In this document: positions 35,869 to 45,182 of the stretch, in pieces
How the letters are laid out: every line of letters starts with the position of its first letter
How positions within the stretch are numbered: the stretch's first letter is position 1
DNA from: an uncultured Bacteroidota bacterium
GTDB taxonomy: Bacteria; Bacteroidota; Bacteroidia; Flavobacteriales; Flavobacteriaceae
Direction: 5' to 3'
NCBI GenBank assembly: GCA_903839195.1
Contig: CAIMBK010000096.1
Coordinates: 1 to 45,412 of the forward strand
DNA: 45,412 nucleotides
Made by a program: the position numbers and the translations under genes
The notes under the pieces: generated by a model
Told to the model about the DNA's origin: nothing
Seen by the model: only the letters and a program-made list of their open reading frames with translations
Database searches by the model: none

Positions 35869-35886
35869 ATATGATATTTGTCATAT
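35869..35886. promoter_or_regulatory. Crp/Fnr-type palindrome upstream of the Crp/Fnr gene
   Basis: ATATGA-tatttg-TCATAT; TAnnTTTG-like box TATTTTTG at 35907-35914. Confidence 0.7.
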
Positions 35887-35932
35887 ATATTAATAAAGAA
35901 GACCTCTATTTTTGGAATACTATTTTGATATT

Positions 35933-36526
35933 ATGAATATAGATTTGGACTTACTTTTTTCTTGGGGCGCAATAGCTAAAAAATACAAAAAAAATGAATT
36001 AATTTTTGATGAAGAAGAAACGGCACATTTCTATTTTCAAATTATTGAAGGTTCCGTTCGTATGTATAATTCTAACGATGACGGGAAGGAATTTACAGAA
36101 GATTTTTATCACAATGGCGATAGTTTTGGAGATTATTCTTTGTTAATTGATAAATCCTATTCGTCAAAAGCAACTACGCTAAAAGACACTACGATTGTTA
36201 AATTATCAAAAATAAAATTTTTGAAAATTATTGAAGATTATCCACTCCTGCGTAATCAGTTTATGATTTCACTTGCTCAAAAAATTTATTCCAAATCAGA
36301 AACATCCAAAGTGATTATTAATCAGAAGCCCGAATTCAGAATTGTTGCGTTTTTAAATACATTTAAAAGAAAGTCGGAAGTGTGTGCTGATCGAATATTG
36401 GTTCCATATACTCGTCAAGAAATCGCAAATTTTACTGGTTTAAGAGTTGAAACAGTAATTAGAGTATGCTCCAGAATGAACGATTCCAACAAAGTAAAAA
36501 TTATCAATCACAAATTATATTATTAA
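35933..36526 (+). CDS. Crp/Fnr family transcriptional regulator
   Basis: cNMP-binding fold (FYFQIIEGSVRMYNSNDDGKEF...NGDSFGDYSLL) and HTH (YTRQEIANFTGLRVETVIRVCSRM). The ORF track starts at TTG 35912; ATG at 35933 is more likely. Confidence 0.93.
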   Translation: MNIDLDLLFSWGAIAKKYKKNELIFDEEETAHFYFQIIEGSVRMYNSNDDGKEFTEDFYHNGDSFGDYSLLIDKSYSSKATTLKDTTIVKLSKIKFLKIIEDYPLLRNQFMISLAQKIYSKSETSKVIINQKPEFRIVAFLNTFKRKSEVCADRILVPYTRQEIANFTGLRVETVIRVCSRMNDSNKVKIINHKLYY

Positions 36527-37759
36527 ATGAAATTAAATATAAAATTTTGGTTGAAATTTTCTTTAATAAATCTATGTATCGTTGCTCTTCTTGGAGTTTT
36601 GATGCGCTATAAAATTGGATTTGCATTTCCATACCTCGAACAAAAAAACCTACAACATTCGCATTCACATTTTGCGTTTTCTGGATGGGTTAGTCATACA
36701 TTAATGACCGTTATGATTTATTATCTTCAAACAAAAATTGAAGCATTTAATGGCGAAAAATACAAAAAAATAATTGTTGCAAATTTAATTTGCTCCTACG
36801 GAATGCTTGTGTTTTTTATTGTCCAAGGATATGGATTAATATCAATATTGTTCTCTTCAGCATCCGTATTTGTGTCGTATTTTTTTGCCTATCAATTCAA
36901 TAAAGATCTAAAACTCTTGAACCCTGATTTATTGTCTAAAAAATGGTTTAAAGCAGCCCTTTTTTTTAATATAATATCTTCTTTTGGAACCTATTATCTA
37001 GCTTTTATAATGATAACAAAAAAATTTGTTCAAGAAATTTATTTGTCTTCAGTGTATTATTATTTGCATTTTCAATATAACGGATGGTTTTTCTTTGCTT
37101 GTATGGGCTTGTTTATCGGGTTTTTAAATTTAAAAAAAACAGATCATCCATTTTTTGAAACAACATTTAAACTATTCGCAATCGCTTGTTTTCCTGTTTA
37201 TTTTCTATCCTTACTTTGGCTTAATTTACCGCTTTGGTTATCTGTAATCACTATAACTGGGGCAAGCATTCAAGTTTTTGCTTGGTTTGTGTTTTTATAT
37301 ATTTTAATAAAAAGCAAAAAAATAGATTTACTTCATTTAACTCCCTTATTGACTAAAATATTACTATTTATCTGTATTGGATTGAGTATAAAATTGCTGC
37401 TTCAATTGGCCTCCACGGTTCCTTATGTGAGTCAGTTGGCTTTTGGCTTTCGCCCAATTGTTATTGCCTATTTACATTTGGTTTTACTTGCCGTTATTTC
37501 CTTATTTCTAATTTTTTACACTAAAGCAAATCGTTTGTTTTTTAGTACAAAAAAACTAAAATTTGGTATTTTTATTTTCTTAATTGGTGTTATATTAAAT
37601 GAAACTGTCCTTGCATTCCAGGGCATAACGTCCTTAAATTACTCTACTATTCCCTATGTCAATCATTTCCTTTTTGCTATCGCCATTTTGTTATTTGTGG
37701 GTATCGTTATTACAACCTATTTTTCATTAATAAAAGATAAAAATAATCCTCCTTTATGA
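36527..37759 (+). CDS. Multi-TM protein resembling heme-copper oxidase subunit I
   Basis: About 12 hydrophobic helices; conserved-looking histidines in NLQHSHSHFAFSGW, YYYLHFQYNGWFFF and VIAYLHLVLLAV; starts directly after the Crp/Fnr stop. Confidence 0.7.
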   Translation: MKLNIKFWLKFSLINLCIVALLGVLMRYKIGFAFPYLEQKNLQHSHSHFAFSGWVSHTLMTVMIYYLQTKIEAFNGEKYKKIIVANLICSYGMLVFFIVQGYGLISILFSSASVFVSYFFAYQFNKDLKLLNPDLLSKKWFKAALFFNIISSFGTYYLAFIMITKKFVQEIYLSSVYYYLHFQYNGWFFFACMGLFIGFLNLKKTDHPFFETTFKLFAIACFPVYFLSLLWLNLPLWLSVITITGASIQVFAWFVFLYILIKSKKIDLLHLTPLLTKILLFICIGLSIKLLLQLASTVPYVSQLAFGFRPIVIAYLHLVLLAVISLFLIFYTKANRLFFSTKKLKFGIFIFLIGVILNETVLAFQGITSLNYSTIPYVNHFLFAIAILLFVGIVITTYFSLIKDKNNPPL

Positions 37760-37772
37760 TTTCGCTCATAAA
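37753..37772. promoter_or_regulatory. Crp/Fnr-type palindrome upstream of the fasciclin gene
   Basis: TTTATGA-tttcgc-TCATAAA, 7-bp arms, overlapping the previous stop codon; TAAATTTG box at 37792-37799. Confidence 0.72.
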
Positions 37773-37827
37773 ATAAATAATGGTATCCTATTAAATTTGT
37801 ACTATAAAAATTAAGATAATTAGTATT

Positions 37828-38382
37828 ATGAAAAAAACAACCCTATTTCTATTAGCTATTAGCTTTGTAGGTTTTTTAAGTTGCAAACAAAATAGCGAAA
37901 CTTCAACAGAAAACAACGCGGATTCTGAAGCACAAGTTGGAACTGGACAATCCGGTGTGGTCGATGAAAATTCAGCTCCAAACATTGTTCAAGTGGCGTC
38001 CAAAAGCAAAGATCATACAACCCTTGTTGCTGCTGTAAAAGCCGCATCACTTGTTGATGCCTTAAGTAATGCTGGACCATTTACGGTTTTTGCACCAACA
38101 AATGCTGCTTTTGACAAATTACCAGCTGGAACTGTTGAAGGTTTGTTGAAACCCGAAAGCAAAGATGCCCTTGTTGATGTTCTGGGATACCACACTTACG
38201 TTGGGGTTCTAAAACTTGAATACATGCAAGATGGCCAAGAGTTTGGCATGGTTAATGGAAAAAAAATAAAAATCACTAAAAAAGAGGACAAAGTGTTTGT
38301 AAATGGTTCTGAAATTATAGTTTCTATACCAACCTCAAATGGGATCATTCATGTAATTGGTGATGTTTTACTTCCTAAATAA
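37828..38382 (+). CDS. Fasciclin domain lipoprotein
   Basis: Lipobox (FVGFLSCKQ); ALSNAGPFTVFAPTNAAFDKLPAGTVEGLL...LGYHTYVG, SNGIIHVIGDVLLPK. Confidence 0.94.
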   Translation: MKKTTLFLLAISFVGFLSCKQNSETSTENNADSEAQVGTGQSGVVDENSAPNIVQVASKSKDHTTLVAAVKAASLVDALSNAGPFTVFAPTNAAFDKLPAGTVEGLLKPESKDALVDVLGYHTYVGVLKLEYMQDGQEFGMVNGKKIKITKKEDKVFVNGSEIIVSIPTSNGIIHVIGDVLLPK

Positions 38383-38411
38383 TAGTTAATTAATTCGAGT
38401 TTTTTAGTTTG

Positions 38412-38442
38412 AAAAAAGCATAAGAAAATCTTATGCTTTTTT
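38412..38442. terminator. Terminator between convergent units
   Basis: AAAAAAGCATAAGA-AAA-TCTTATGCTTTTTTT. Confidence 0.85.
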
Positions 38443-38454
38443 TAGTGATAAAAT

Positions 38455-38706
38455 CTAACGCAGTGTTTTATGAATAATGGCTGCAGAAATATTTAATCCT
38501 CTATTTTTTATTTCTATTGCTTTATCGCCTTCAAATAATTTGTCAACACTTTCCTCAAAAATTTGGTTCCAATGATGTAATTTATCCCAATCCGATTGTT
38601 CCATTTTGTTAAAAAAGTAACCGATAGATTGGTCTTTGTTTACTTTTAGATAAAAGTGATATACTAATTTTTCAATGTCTACTCGATTTTTAATGTCTGT
38701 TTTTAT
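38455..38706 (-). pseudogene. Relic of a group III truncated hemoglobin (lost start, internal deletion)
   Basis: In-frame (I)KTDIKNRVDIEKLVYHFYLKVNKDQSIGYFFNKMEQSDWDKLHHWNQIFEESVDKLFEGDKAIEIKNRGLNISAAIIHKTLR*; first codon ATA where ATG is expected. Confidence 0.75.
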
Positions 38707-38735
38707 ATTTTAATTTATTTACAATTAAAAAATAT

Positions 38736-39503
38736 TTATAAATCTATTTTTTTAAATTTTATCATTGATACGATCATTGGAATTACAATCCATAAGCACA
38801 GTAATATAAAGGAAATTATTAATCCCAAATAGGTTCCGAAAAAATCTTTAAAAATAGCGCCGGTATAGCCCATCATTGCCGATTGATCCAATTGCAAAAG
38901 AATTTGTATGCGGGCTAAATCAATTGGGCTAAAAGCGGTAACTCCTACCATTGCTTTTTCAATTGGATATTCCGAAAATTGAAACAACAAAAACAAAACA
39001 ATCCCGTCAAATAGCATTGCAAAATACAACCAAGTCAAAATAGCAATTCCGATTCCTTTTGCTTTATCTCGGGAAAGTATTGTGCATAAAAAAGCTAGCG
39101 AAACAAAAACAACAGAAATCAAGCAACCTACTATAAACATTAGCACTCCAACCGTTTCGGGTGCATTGAGTAAAAGTGGAATGCCAGCGCCAATGAAAAA
39201 TGCTAAAATCAAGGAAAGTGAAAGTCCGATAAATAAACTCATCCAGATTTTTTTTCTTTTAATGGGTTGGCTCAATAATAGTTCAATGAATTCTGCGCTA
39301 TTATAGAGGTAAATTGTTGCAAAAAGTATTGAAAATAAAGGAACCGTAAATAATATTACATTCAATAGGGTTAATAATCCTTTGGCTGAATTGTCTTCTA
39401 ATGCAAATGCGCTCCATGACAAAAGAGCCAATAATAAGGTATAAACTAAAATAATTTTATTCCTAACTATATCTATAAAAATGATTTTAATTATACGATT
39501 CAT
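38736..39503 (-). CDS. nosY: NosY-type ABC transporter permease
   Basis: Six-helix membrane protein, overlapping the ATPase gene in a nos cluster. Confidence 0.9.
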   Translation of the reverse strand: MNRIIKIIFIDIVRNKIILVYTLLLALLSWSAFALEDNSAKGLLTLLNVILFTVPLFSILFATIYLYNSAEFIELLLSQPIKRKKIWMSLFIGLSLSLILAFFIGAGIPLLLNAPETVGVLMFIVGCLISVVFVSLAFLCTILSRDKAKGIGIAILTWLYFAMLFDGIVLFLLFQFSEYPIEKAMVGVTAFSPIDLARIQILLQLDQSAMMGYTGAIFKDFFGTYLGLIISFILLCLWIVIPMIVSMIKFKKIDL

Positions 39504-40209
39504 GGCTGCTGGTTTTTAGAATTTGTGCAATTGCTTTTGATATTTTTTGTTCTTTGGTGTTTTCTAATAGTGTAGAAATATTTTTATGAAATTGAACTTT
39601 TCCATCTTGCATATAAATAATTTGGGTAATTAAATCATCCAATTCACTTAAAAGATGGGAAGTAATCAGAATTAATTTGCCTTTATTTTTTTCACGAATA
39701 ATCTTTTCTTTTAATATTTCGGATGCTAGAGGATCTAATCCCGCGGTGGGTTCGTCAAGGATAAGCACATCGGGATTAAATAAGAACGCTAAAGTTGCGC
39801 TTACTTTTTGTGTAGTTCCGCCAGAAAGCGTACGCATAGGTTTGTCAAATATTTTTTCTAGTTCAAATTCTCTTATTAATTCCTCGTCCAAATTTTGATT
39901 TGAATTTCGGATAGTTTTCATCATTTTCAAAATTTGTCCAATGCTCATATAATCCGGATACTTGCCTATTTGGGGCATATATCCAATTTTTTCCCGATAA
40001 TCAAATTGTCCTAATATTGATTTATTTTGAAATAAAATGTCGCCTTTCGTAGGAATAACCATTCCCAAAATACTTTTAATTAAGGTAGTTTTTCCACAGC
40101 CATTTGGTCCAATAAGCGCAATGCATTCTCCTTTGTTAAATGTCAAGTTTAGATTATTTAAAACAGTCGATTTTCCAAAAGTTTTTGAAATATTTTTTAT
40201 AGTAATCAT
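39487..40209 (-). CDS. nosF: NosF-type ABC transporter ATP-binding protein
   Basis: Walker A GPNGCGKTTLIKS, signature LSGGTTQKVSA, Walker B VLILDEPTAGLDP. Confidence 0.95.
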   Translation of the reverse strand: MITIKNISKTFGKSTVLNNLNLTFNKGECIALIGPNGCGKTTLIKSILGMVIPTKGDILFQNKSILGQFDYREKIGYMPQIGKYPDYMSIGQILKMMKTIRNSNQNLDEELIREFELEKIFDKPMRTLSGGTTQKVSATLAFLFNPDVLILDEPTAGLDPLASEILKEKIIREKNKGKLILITSHLLSELDDLITQIIYMQDGKVQFHKNISTLLENTKEQKISKAIAQILKTSSHESYN

Positions 40210-41438
40210 AATGATAATGAGTGTGTTAAAGGAAAATTATCTATGAAATTATCGGGCGTAATGCTGGGTAATATTTTCTCGGATTTATCCAAAAGCGTGA
40301 TCATAAAACTTCTAAAAAGCAACATTGCCGAAGGATTTTTTTCTGTTAAAACTGCGAACAAACTTAAAGGATGAAATGGCACATCTCCTACTCCATTTTT
40401 ATTCAAATCATAGCCCTCGTATTTGTCCCAATAATTGCCATTAAAACAATTAAGAACCAAACTCCCATTGGTGCTAATGTCAAAAGTATTTCCTACAAAA
40501 TTATTTTCTCTTATTGTATTATCCATACAACTTGCTTGGATTTTCATTCCCCAACCATTGGATTCAAAGATGTTTTTTTCAACCAAAATCCGATTGGTTC
40601 CTTCCATATAAATTCCAGAAGTGTTTTTGTCAAATTTGTTTCCAATAATAAAACTATCCGAAATTTCTTTAAGTAAAAGTCCGTAGGCGGCATCGCCCCA
40701 GTTTTCTTCAAAATAATTGTTAAACATTTTGACTCTTTTTGTAAACATAACTGCAACACCTGCGCCATTGGATTTAAAAATATTAGAAATATAGGCATCA
40801 TCGTTTGAAAACATAAAATGCAAACCATATCGAATATTTTGGGTCGAAATGTTCCTCCAAATTACAGAATTGGTTACAAATTCAAAATAAATTCCATCCC
40901 GATGCCCCGATATTGTATTCCCGATAATTTGAAGACTATCGCTTTTCCAACAATGAATCCCATTTCCTATTTGCTGTTCGTCTTTGCCAAAAGCGAGTAA
41001 TTTGTTGTTTTTTATGATGCAATTGGTTCCGTTTTGAATATATATTCCAAAGAAATTATCATCCAAAATATTATTTTGAATCACAACATGATTTCGATTA
41101 TACACTTTAATTCCACAAGGATCATCAAGCGTTGCAAAGCCCGATTTAATGATTTTAAAACCATCAACAATTACATTATCGGCTTTTATTGAAAGTACTT
41201 CAAATTTTTTCTGACCATCTAATACAGGGTGATTTTTGCCTATAAAAACAATTTTTTTATTAATGACAATAGTCCCCTCTTTATAAATTCCATAAGAAAC
41301 AATAATGGTGTCGCCGTCCCTTGACAAAGCGATTGCTTTCTTAATATTTTTAATGGGTTTGTTTGCACCAACTTCAATCACATTGGCATGAATAAATGTG
41401 GACAACAAGAATAGTAGATAAATTATTTTTTTTATCAT
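40206..41438 (-). CDS. nosD: Nitrous oxide reductase maturation protein NosD
   Basis: Signal peptide and parallel beta-helix repeats (NHVVIQNNILDDNFFGIYIQNGTNCIIKNNKL); nos context. Confidence 0.95.
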   Translation of the reverse strand: MIKKIIYLLFLLSTFIHANVIEVGANKPIKNIKKAIALSRDGDTIIVSYGIYKEGTIVINKKIVFIGKNHPVLDGQKKFEVLSIKADNVIVDGFKIIKSGFATLDDPCGIKVYNRNHVVIQNNILDDNFFGIYIQNGTNCIIKNNKLLAFGKDEQQIGNGIHCWKSDSLQIIGNTISGHRDGIYFEFVTNSVIWRNISTQNIRYGLHFMFSNDDAYISNIFKSNGAGVAVMFTKRVKMFNNYFEENWGDAAYGLLLKEISDSFIIGNKFDKNTSGIYMEGTNRILVEKNIFESNGWGMKIQASCMDNTIRENNFVGNTFDISTNGSLVLNCFNGNYWDKYEGYDLNKNGVGDVPFHPLSLFAVLTEKNPSAMLLFRSFMITLLDKSEKILPSITPDNFIDNFPLTHSLSL

Positions 41439-41478
41439 TTGAATAAATTGCTTTAATAAAAACTAAATTAACAGCCTC

Positions 41479-42495
41479 CTAATTATTCAAAATTGAATTC
41501 CAAGTAATTGTTTTGGCTTTGTATTTTTTATTCACTTCATTTTTGATGTTTTCATTTGAAAAAGCAATAATTCCGCCTCGCATTGGGCTGTGAATAGCAT
41601 CGCTTGAAAGAAAATAAGCCGATGAAGCTGGAATTAATATATTTTGTTTGGAATAATCATGAACAAAATAGGCCGCAATTGAATTTTTGGGATTTTCTTT
41701 GCAATAATTTACCATACATATAATATCGTCAAATTTATACGCTCTTCCTTTTTCAGTAATAATTTCTGAACCAAATTGTCCGTCAGAAATTCCCATCGAA
41801 CAATAATCGCAATTGTCTTTATTTAAATTGATTGGTATTGCATTAGAATTGGAACACGAAAAAAAAGTGAATGAAAAAAATAGCAAACACACTACTGTTG
41901 TTTTTCGGATACTGAATTTTAATACCCATTTAGAATCATTTATTACAATAAAAAATAAAATTATAGCCGCTAAAATAAGCAACCAGCCACCAATATCAGG
42001 AATCGAATAGGCACCGAAATTAAGAAGTTGCTTGTATCCAATTAATGGCGGTTGATATGCCATTCCGGGTACGACAATTGCAGCATTTGGATCAAGATTA
42101 TGTCCATATTCATAGTTCCATCTGTAGAAATCCACACCTGCCAAAACTCCAAAAAGCAAAAAAGTGGATAACAGTATAATCACTCCTTTTCTTTTGGCCA
42201 CAAAAACCATTGATAAAGCAAATAATCCAAAAAAGACAAAAATGTAGGGTATTATTTGAAATTCAGGGAAATCTTCTTTATGTAGGGTTTTCATGCCTAT
42301 ATAATGATTTAAACCGTTTATAATATCAACGTCACCGCCAATTTTATTTGCGTATAATTGAAGGACTAATCCTTCCGGATATTGAGGAGCTGTTAATTCT
42401 ATTCGCCACATTGGGAATAATAACGACGAGAAAAACAATCCACTAACAACCAAAAGCAACACTTTTGAAAGCACCGGTATTTTTGAAATATTCAT
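41479..42495 (-). CDS. nosL: Membrane protein fused to C-terminal NosL domain
   Basis: N-terminal about 200 aa with TM helices; C-terminal lipobox-like FFSCSNS, DNCDYCSMGISDGQFGSEIITEKGRAYKFDDIICM typical of NosL. Confidence 0.9.
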   Translation of the reverse strand: MNISKIPVLSKVLLLVVSGLFFSSLLFPMWRIELTAPQYPEGLVLQLYANKIGGDVDIINGLNHYIGMKTLHKEDFPEFQIIPYIFVFFGLFALSMVFVAKRKGVIILLSTFLLFGVLAGVDFYRWNYEYGHNLDPNAAIVVPGMAYQPPLIGYKQLLNFGAYSIPDIGGWLLILAAIILFFIVINDSKWVLKFSIRKTTVVCLLFFSFTFFSCSNSNAIPINLNKDNCDYCSMGISDGQFGSEIITEKGRAYKFDDIICMVNYCKENPKNSIAAYFVHDYSKQNILIPASSAYFLSSDAIHSPMRGGIIAFSNENIKNEVNKKYKAKTITWNSILNN

Positions 42496-42581
42496 AAATA
42501 GTAAAGTAAAATTTATTTAAATCGGTAAAAACTATTTAACCCAAGTGACATTCAAATAAAATTAGAAAACATGGATTAAAA

Positions 42582-42609
42582 AAGGGAACCGTTTTATTGG
42601 TTCCCCTTA
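42582..42609 (-). terminator. Rho-independent terminator between nosZ and nosL
   Basis: Minus strand AAGGGGAACC-aataaaac-GGTTCCCTTTTTT, 12 nt after the nosZ stop. Confidence 0.85.
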
Positions 42610-42620
42610 TTGATTTCTAA

Positions 42621-44597
42621 CTATTTTGTCGAAGGTAGGTTTGTACCTAAACTAAATGTTAGCGGCACTTTGCTTCCTGCTGGTGAAACTCTTACATATC
42701 CTTGCATTTCTTGGTGCAAAGCACTACAGAAATCGGTACAATAAAATGGGAAGATACCTACTTTATTAGGAATCCATTTTAAGGTACTGGTTTCCCCTGG
42801 CATGATGAGCAACTCGGCATTGTCGGCTCCTTTTATAGCAAATCCGTGAGGAACATCCCAATCTTGTTCTAAATTAGTCACGTGAAAATACACTTCGTCT
42901 CCTACTTTTATTCCTTCGATATTATCGGATGCAAAGTGAGAACGGATAGAAGTCATATAAACATCGACTCTATTTCCTTTTCTAACTACCTTGGATTCTT
43001 TTTCTCCTTTGGTTACAAAAGGATGATTATTTTCCTCTATTTTATAGAATTTCAACTGCCCATTATTTCGAATTAAATCGGCTGGTGCTGCTTGTGCATA
43101 ATGCGGTTCTCCAATGGTTGGGAAATCTAAAATCAATTGCATTTTGTCACCGCTAATGTCAAATATCTGGGCACTTTGAGCTAATTCAGGACCTGTTGGT
43201 AAATATCTGTCTTTTGTTATTTTGTTGTAAGCAACCAAGTATTTTCCAAAAGGTTTTTTACTATCACCTCCAGGAATACACAAGTGACCTACAGAATAAT
43301 AAGTAGGAACTCTGTCTAAAACTTTCAAAGATTTGATGTCCCATTTCACCACTTCAGAAGAAACGAAGAAGGTAGTATAGGCATTTCCTTTTCCGTCAAA
43401 TTCAGTATGTAATGGTCCAAGACCCGGTTTTTTAACTTCACCGTGCAATGCCGCTTCATATTTAATTACAGGAATTCCTTCATATTCTCCGTCGAATTGT
43501 TTGTTTTTGATAGCATTTTGCATTTTATCGAAACTAAACACAGGAATCAAAGCAGCCAATTTTCCAGAACCTACAATGTATTCACCTGTTGGATCCACAT
43601 CACAACCGTGAGGCGATTTTGGACAAGGAATCATATAACAAATGTCTTTTAATTCTTTTGCACTTAAAACTAAAACTTGGGTTCTGATTTCAGATTTGGC
43701 AGTATGTGTTTTTTCGTCATAGACATTGTGAGCATATTTTGTAGCTACTTTTTTACCTTTTCCTGCTTTAACATATTCTTCGGCTTTTTTCCAATTGACA
43801 GCCATAATAAAATCTTTGTCTTTTTGAGAGGCATTCACTTCTAGCAACGTATTGGCTTGTTCGGTATTGTAACAAGAAAAGAAAAACCAACCATGCGATT
43901 TACCTTTACCAGCGTGACTTAAATCGAAGTTTACTCCAGGAGCTTCTATTTGGAAAGCAATATCCATTTCGCCTGCTTTACCCACTTTTACAAAACTTAA
44001 ATAACCTTTGAAATTTTCTTTGTAGGTATTAATTGGAACATCACCGTTTGCATTATCTGGCGGAACGCTAAAACGGGTTCCTGCCACAACATATTCTGTA
44101 TTTTCTGTGATGAAAGGAGAAGAGTGATTTCCTGCACTGTTTGGCAATTCGATAATTTCTTTTGTAGTGAATGTTTTTAAGTCTACACGAGCAATACGAG
44201 GCGTGTTGTTTGCATTGGCAAAAAGCCAACGACCATCAACTTCACCATTCGTTTGAGACAATTCGGTATGATGTTGGTCATCCCAAGGCACAAAACCGTG
44301 AGAGGTGTTTAACATAGGTTTTGTTTCTTCATTGTAGCCATAACCACTTTGAGGATCGGCAGAAAAAACAGGAATGACTCTAAAAAGTCTTCCGCTTGGC
44401 AATCCATAAACGCTTACTTGACCACTAAAACCTCCTGAAACGAAATTATAAAATTCATCGTATTTACCTGGAGCTACATATGCTTTTTGCGCGGCATCTC
44501 CATTTACAGCATCTTCTGAATTTTTTGGTTTACATGAGCTAAAAAATGCAGCTACCAAAACAATGGCTAATGTTGCTTTTAAAAATTTATTTTTCAT
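42621..44597 (-). CDS. nosZ: Nitrous-oxide reductase, clade II (Sec-type, lipoprotein signal)
   Basis: DDQHHTELSQTNGEVDGRWLFANANNTPRIARVD, CPKSPHGCDVDPTGEY, CuA motif FYCTDFCSALHQEM; signal AAFFSSCKPK, no twin Arg. Confidence 0.98.
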   Translation of the reverse strand: MKNKFLKATLAIVLVAAFFSSCKPKNSEDAVNGDAAQKAYVAPGKYDEFYNFVSGGFSGQVSVYGLPSGRLFRVIPVFSADPQSGYGYNEETKPMLNTSHGFVPWDDQHHTELSQTNGEVDGRWLFANANNTPRIARVDLKTFTTKEIIELPNSAGNHSSPFITENTEYVVAGTRFSVPPDNANGDVPINTYKENFKGYLSFVKVGKAGEMDIAFQIEAPGVNFDLSHAGKGKSHGWFFFSCYNTEQANTLLEVNASQKDKDFIMAVNWKKAEEYVKAGKGKKVATKYAHNVYDEKTHTAKSEIRTQVLVLSAKELKDICYMIPCPKSPHGCDVDPTGEYIVGSGKLAALIPVFSFDKMQNAIKNKQFDGEYEGIPVIKYEAALHGEVKKPGLGPLHTEFDGKGNAYTTFFVSSEVVKWDIKSLKVLDRVPTYYSVGHLCIPGGDSKKPFGKYLVAYNKITKDRYLPTGPELAQSAQIFDISGDKMQLILDFPTIGEPHYAQAAPADLIRNNGQLKFYKIEENNHPFVTKGEKESKVVRKGNRVDVYMTSIRSHFASDNIEGIKVGDEVYFHVTNLEQDWDVPHGFAIKGADNAELLIMPGETSTLKWIPNKVGIFPFYCTDFCSALHQEMQGYVRVSPAGSKVPLTFSLGTNLPSTK

Positions 44598-44637
44598 AAT
44601 ACTCTGTTTATTTAAGTGTTAATTTTATTTATAATGC

Positions 44638-45108
44638 TTATTTAATACCATCATTTTTACGCATATACTCTAATAAATTTCGTGCATCTGTATCAGAAAG
44701 CGATTGATTTGGCATACGAACCAAACATATTTCTAATAACGCTTGTAATTTTGGATCTTTATCAATCATTGGGTCTGGATTTGTAATAAAATTCATAATC
44801 CATTCTGGCTTATAACGAGAAATTACTCCTTTCCATCCAGGACCAACTAATTTTTCATCGGTCAATTTATGACACGCGGCACATTTTACAGATTGTATTT
44901 TTTCACCTTCTGCCGCCAATGATTCATTAAGTTTATCTCCTAAATCTACTGTGGTAAATTTTCCTATACCCCTATTCGGGTCATAAGTAGTTGGGTCAAT
45001 CGGTGTTTTTGATGTTTCATCACTTTTAGAAAAATCATCTGAATTTTTTTTGTTACCACATGAGGTAACCATTATTAATGCAGTAATAAACATAGCTAAT
45101 TTGTACAT
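44638..45108 (-). CDS. c-type cytochrome lipoprotein
   Basis: Lipobox (IMVTSCGN), one heme motif KCAACHK, distal PGWKGVI and RMPNQSLSDTDARNLLEYM. Confidence 0.95.
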   Translation of the reverse strand: MYKLAMFITALIMVTSCGNKKNSDDFSKSDETSKTPIDPTTYDPNRGIGKFTTVDLGDKLNESLAAEGEKIQSVKCAACHKLTDEKLVGPGWKGVISRYKPEWIMNFITNPDPMIDKDPKLQALLEICLVRMPNQSLSDTDARNLLEYMRKNDGIK

Positions 45109-45160
45109 AGAATTTGGTTTTAAAATTTCTTAGACAAATTTCCGAATTGAAATGCAGTTG

Positions 45161-45182
45161 AAATATGATTTAAATCATATTT
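45161..45182. promoter_or_regulatory. 22-bp perfect palindrome upstream of the cytochrome c-nos operon (Crp/Fnr-type site)
   Basis: AAATATGATTTAAATCATATTT; core ATATGA-N6-TCATAT identical in arms to 35869-35886; minus-strand GAAATTTG box at 45142-45135. Confidence 0.78.

Follow-up and report, generated by a model that had tools for sequence, protein, structure and literature searches.

Two classes of Crp/Fnr-type palindrome as conserved candidate promoter switches at a flavobacterial nos locus

In Escherichia coli, FNR combines a recognition helix of the pattern VE..R with a TGAT-N4-ATCA core site and the class II position at -41.5. The control of Paracoccus denitrificans nosZ by FnrP and NNR, and the Crp/Fnr regulators NssA, NssB and NssC reported for clade II nos genes of Wolinella succinogenes (site TTGA-N6-TCAA), are both cited in PMC11539149, and the DNR, NnrR and HcpR regulons were described by Rodionov et al. 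2005 (PMC1274295). In the literature searched, we found no description of how the flavobacterial clade II nos operon is switched on and, subscription papers aside, none of the regulator or motif presented here in Bacteroidota. We analyzed a 45,412-nucleotide stretch of DNA from an uncultured member of the Flavobacteriaceae (the window), for which an earlier note had proposed that a Crp/Fnr regulator controls its own gene, a fasciclin gene and a nos operon as a local regulon, acting through three palindromes.

The regulator, here called REG (197 aa; 35933..36526, plus strand), is by its Pfam domains a member of the Crp/Fnr superfamily, with a cNMP-binding-like sensor domain and a Crp-type helix-turn-helix; PF00027 (E 4e-17), PF13545 (E 3e-7), and PF00325 (E 6e-5) were all above gathering scores. 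Its recognition helix, GLRVETVIR, was invariant in 41 sequences. REG shares with E. coli FNR the VE..R helix pattern, the TGAT-N4-ATCA core, and the -41.5 position, but the outer base of its sites is A rather than T, their inner T/A positions are constrained, and the REG alignment showed no N-terminal cysteine cluster; its only two cysteines vary and lie outside the N-terminal half. We ruled out REG as an oxygen-sensing Fe-S FNR because this cluster is absent. In the sensor domain of the alignment neither a His nor a Cys was invariant, and no hallmark of NO sensing could be recognized in REG. The stretch corresponding to the CRP cAMP-pocket Arg-Ser, matched to CRP by eye only, has no Arg. Against the NCBIfam CRP model, REG scored 52.6 bits (cut-off 266); DNR (3dkw) was one of many PDB profile matches (E 1.9e-17), below CRP. 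The Fnr paralogue of this genome (229 aa, contig C31) carries an N-terminal MSKCEQC, and the Fnr recognition helix read GTATESCIR in every readable sequence.

REG is followed by a gene for a 410-aa membrane protein with 12 transmembrane helices (36527..37759, plus strand), probably co-transcribed with it, and by a gene for a fasciclin-domain lipoprotein (37828..38382, plus strand; PF02469, E 5e-31). The 410-aa protein had no match in Pfam, NCBIfam or PDB sequence searches. Its AlphaFold model (pTM 0.86) has a predicted haem-copper-oxidase/NorB fold, matching best cbb3 oxidase and the catalytic subunit of NO reductase, with P. aeruginosa NorB as the top PDB fold match (TM 0.76); since only five histidines were invariant (H44, H46, H48, H181, and H317), the six-histidine set of haem-copper oxidases appears incomplete in this protein. 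The nos operon lies on the minus strand and begins with a c-type cytochrome lipoprotein gene (44638..45108; PF00034), followed by nosZ (42621..44597), which encodes a clade II Sec-dependent N2O reductase (TIGR04246, 938 bits against a cut-off of 625), a nosB-nosL fusion (41479..42495; PF05573 at the C-terminus), and nosD, nosF, and nosY (38736..41438; PF05048, PF00005, and PF12679), in an order conserved in relatives. In the fusion we found the LNHYIGM and YGHN motifs that PMC9697520 describes for F. azooxidireducens.

On re-reading the sequence, we found the coordinates and letters of all three palindromes to be exact. The REG promoter contains ATATGATATTTGTCATAT (TATGATATTTGTCATA) at 35869..35886 (plus strand) and the -7 box TATTTTTG at 35907..35914 (plus strand), also checked in letters and coordinates. 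Upstream of the fasciclin gene are TTTATGATTTCGCTCATAAA at 37753..37772 and the box TAAATTTG at 37792..37799 (both plus strand); the left half of this palindrome overlaps the stop codon of the 410-aa gene, and its right half is atypical. The 22-bp palindrome AAATATGATTTAAATCATATTT lies upstream of the nos operon at 45161..45182 (minus strand), with the box GAAATTTG, non-consensus in its first base, at 45135..45142 (minus strand). The distance from palindrome centre to the first base of the -7 box is 29.5 bp at all three promoters, just as had been reported. TAnnTTTG occupies -12 to -5 from published start sites in F. psychrophilum (PMC9723704), and this spacing therefore places the palindrome centres at a predicted -41.5 (approximately so for REG), the position of class II Crp/Fnr sites, which overlap the upstream core element. 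The class II geometry suggested by the earlier note is thus well supported, given also that the spacing is conserved among species.

TATGA-N6-TCATA occurred three times in the window (0.09 expected), a count reached in 0 of 100 dinucleotide shuffles, and ATGA-N6-TCAT with a -7 box at the exact spacing, allowing one mismatch, occurred four times (0.10 expected). In pattern searches of the 2.03-Mb genome, TAnnTTTG was located 7-37 bp downstream of ATGA-N6-TCAT in nine matches, five of which were at exactly N22, one of 31 possible spacings (binomial p ~4e-6). The core ATGA-N6-TCAT alone had 74 copies in the genome, roughly the number expected by chance from base composition, and one copy falls within nosZ at 44268; we therefore take the signal to lie in the outer TA/TA and in the -7 spacing, and dropped the core alone as evidence. 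The shuffles, together with conservation across species, ruled out a chance origin of the three sites. The copy inside nosZ and ORF-internal sites on contigs C42, C83, C116, C117, C118, C125, and C130 were taken as chance occurrences.

Orthologues of REG were present in ~80 of 400 same-genus genomes at 51-82% identity and in ~25 more at 46-48%; the named REG-bearing relatives were nearly all Flavobacterium. The gene order REG, 410-aa gene, fasciclin gene, and convergent nosYFDLZ-cytochrome c was kept in most of the 40 genomes examined. The conservation in orthologous promoters that the earlier note had wanted checked was found in dozens of Flavobacterium species, with all three sites and their spacing retained in ~30-40 (26-33 per promoter); the REG-bearing genomes form one lineage, so these site counts are not independent events. 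The palindrome centre was 33.5 bp from the start of TTTG in 32/33 nos promoters and in 26/26 fasciclin promoters (the fasciclin site being conserved in 26 genomes), and 33.5 or 34.5 bp from it in the REG promoters of 28 of 32 species. As nearly all Flavobacterium nos promoters examined had [GC]AAATTTG as their -7 box, GAAATTTG, which had been read as mismatched, is the conserved form. The fasciclin box was GTACTTTG or GTGCTTTG in many relatives. Eight other Flavobacterium nosZ loci (L228-L235), which encode another NosZ type (~67% identity), showed no site paired with the expected box inside 1.5 kb, and we did not use them.

We numbered the inner six bases of the palindromes N1-N6 and read the class of each site from N2/N5. 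The Fnr class, TGAYA-WW-TRTCA, had A/T at these positions in 28/28 fnr-ccoI sites of REG-bearing genomes; the regulator class, TGATT-NN-A-N-TCA, had T/A in 32/33 nos and 25/26 fasciclin sites. Score matrices correctly classed 31/32 nos sites and 27/27 fnr sites in leave-one-out. By log-odds, the window's fasciclin (+9.5 bits) and nos (+5.1 bits) sites belong to the regulator class, and its REG promoter site (-17.5 bits) to the Fnr class. A strict pattern, ATGATTNNARTCAT-N25-27-TTTG, gave 74 matches in 31 genomes and 1 when reversed, and its only match in the window genome was the nos site. We regard the three palindromes as conserved candidate promoter switches in two classes, one probably read by the general low-oxygen regulator and the other probably by the nearby REG, which is seemingly dedicated to NO and N2O respiration.

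In relatives, regulator-class sites were found, besides nos and REG, at genes for norC, RIC (Fe-S repair), an Rrf2/NsrR-like protein, a hemerythrin-like protein, and a 95-aa membrane protein, so that the predicted targets are largely an NO-stress and denitrification set. These predicted sites cover the nor, nos, and NO-damage genes of a DNR/NnrR-type regulon; those of the window genome cover only nos and fasciclin. Its norC-like and RIC sites are of the Fnr class, so the REG regulon may comprise only nos and the fasciclin gene there. REG resembles DNR, NnrR, and HcpR (PMC1274295) in having predicted targets in nor, nos, and NO-damage repair, no Fe-S cysteine motif, and an FNR-like site; Bacteroides HcpR2 in that study has the motif GTAACnnnnGTTAC and targets hcp, and the REG motif is ATGATTNNAATCAT. 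The Paracoccus regulators (cited in PMC11539149) offer a parallel in which nos is under both an O2-sensing and an NO-sensing Crp/Fnr regulator, the sensing being a prediction for REG; here, in contrast, the site classes can be separated by sequence, the promoter is the TAnnTTTG type of the phylum, and the nosZ is of clade II. The Nss system is likewise reported to place clade II nos under Crp/Fnr regulators via TGA-N6-TCA sites, but Wolinella belongs to another phylum, and the outer bases of the sites described here are A/T instead of T/A.

Could the cysteine-containing Fnr alone control all three promoters, with the two classes reflecting drift and REG having other targets? Both classes share TGA-N6-TCA, and in other genera of the family, whose members nearly all lack REG, 24 of 29 nos promoters had TATGA-N6-TCAT with TAnnTTTG or TAnnTTTA spaced as in the window. 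Under the Fnr matrix, the nos site of the window kept a score of 16.5 bits, and Fnr may thus bind it as well. The N2/N5 split is nevertheless complete within the same genomes, the fasciclin site scored only 2.4 bits under the Fnr matrix, and T/A occurred in 0/24 of the other-genus nos sites, yet is found beside REG and its homologues. We consider control by Fnr alone unlikely.

The reading of the earlier note, with REG as an autoactivator and the sole regulator of three local promoters, fits the adjacency of the genes, the shared TGA-N6-TCA, and the regulator-class site in the REG promoter of about one third of species. In the window, however, the REG promoter site is identical to the fnr-ccoI site of contig C31 and lies 17.5 bits toward the Fnr class, and the REG promoters of other species vary between classes (window included: 12 T/A, 10 T/G, 5 A/T, 3 T/T, and 2 A/A). 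Elsewhere in the genome the motif recurs, for the most part with unchanged spacing, in front of ccoS-ccoN, hemN, norC-like cytochrome, and CoA-transferase genes, as well as ccoI (one box mismatch, in the intergenic region shared with fnr) and a decarboxylase gene (one mismatch). These genome-wide matches ruled out a purely local regulon, and the motif extends across the family, mostly where REG is absent. Of the control proposed for REG, the part concerning nos and fasciclin has good support from conservation and site class, while self-control found no support in this genome; we give the three-promoter model as a whole only a slim chance.

The fnr-ccoI palindrome (contig C31, L160:500-516) is a single Fnr-class site for two divergent genes, kept in many relatives. 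Toward ccoI its spacing is that of class II, whereas the fnr -7 box is ~16.5-17.5 bp away, which suggests that Fnr activates ccoI and represses itself. Contig C71 holds a cluster of norC/norB-like, nadA, nadB, and RIC genes and an anaerobic ribonucleotide reductase with its activase (L162:2180-10295), with Fnr-class sites upstream of the norC-like and RIC genes; on the same contig, a 597-aa protein with no family assigned (L162:296-2166) is encoded behind the perfect Fnr-class site TATGACATATGTCATA.

Homologues of REG in other genera (~34-40% identity) share RVETVIR almost throughout, and sites near their gene starts had N5 = A in 18/19, typically as TATGATTCAAATCATA at -21 of the start codon. 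Helix and site class therefore appear linked outside the REG clade as well, and the position at -21 suggests autorepression there. That REG is itself a repressor, as this position outside class II would allow by analogy, is very improbable, since the nos and fasciclin sites are exactly at -41.5 and their -7 boxes ([GC]AAATTTG, GTACTTTG) have a non-consensus first base, as in activator-dependent promoters.

We think it likely that two Crp/Fnr-type activators operate in the nos islands of Flavobacterium, binding look-alike palindromes at -41.5 beside a sigma-A -7 box. The global Fnr would read TGAYA-WW-TRTCA at cco, hemN, nor-like genes, and, in the window genome, the REG gene, so that low oxygen would raise REG through Fnr. 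REG would read TGATT-NN-A-N-TCA through its RVETVIR helix, with TGATTNNAATCA as the predicted bound sequence, and would switch on both nos and fasciclin transcription through class II contact. A non-consensus first base in the -7 box is in keeping with such dependence on an activator. We infer the pairing of protein and site class from the company that helices and sites keep, and predict that REG is activated by a nitrogen oxide, most likely NO.

The ~47%-identity group had no such site in REG's own promoter. Downstream of REG, this group (L150-L154) has a site of the regulator class, or one related to it, and a convergent gene for a group III truncated haemoglobin, which stands there in place of the fasciclin gene and of the 410-aa gene that directly follows REG in the main clade. 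One Flavobacterium genome (G488, L346:11304) has a regulator-class nos site and a NosZ with 86% identity, but of REG only the distant homologue, which may do the job of REG there.

A broader reading, which we put forward tentatively as possible rather than probable, is that REG and its homologues form an undescribed flavobacteriacean family of Crp/Fnr activators that respond to nitrogen oxides and are kept separate from Fnr by T/A in place of A/T at inner positions 2 and 5. The REG lineage of Flavobacterium would then have taken clade II nos from ancestral Fnr control, and the 410-aa protein, related to NO reductase but non-catalytic, would serve the circuit in a role such as that of a haem or electron-transfer partner.

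Clade II nosZ carriers among the flavobacteria are recognized as N2O sinks. The two-class code and the fixed -41.5 geometry yield a testable prediction of which regulator acts at which promoters and through which bases. Here, two base positions seem to separate a pair of related regulators, and the operon seems to have come under a different regulator in different lineages.
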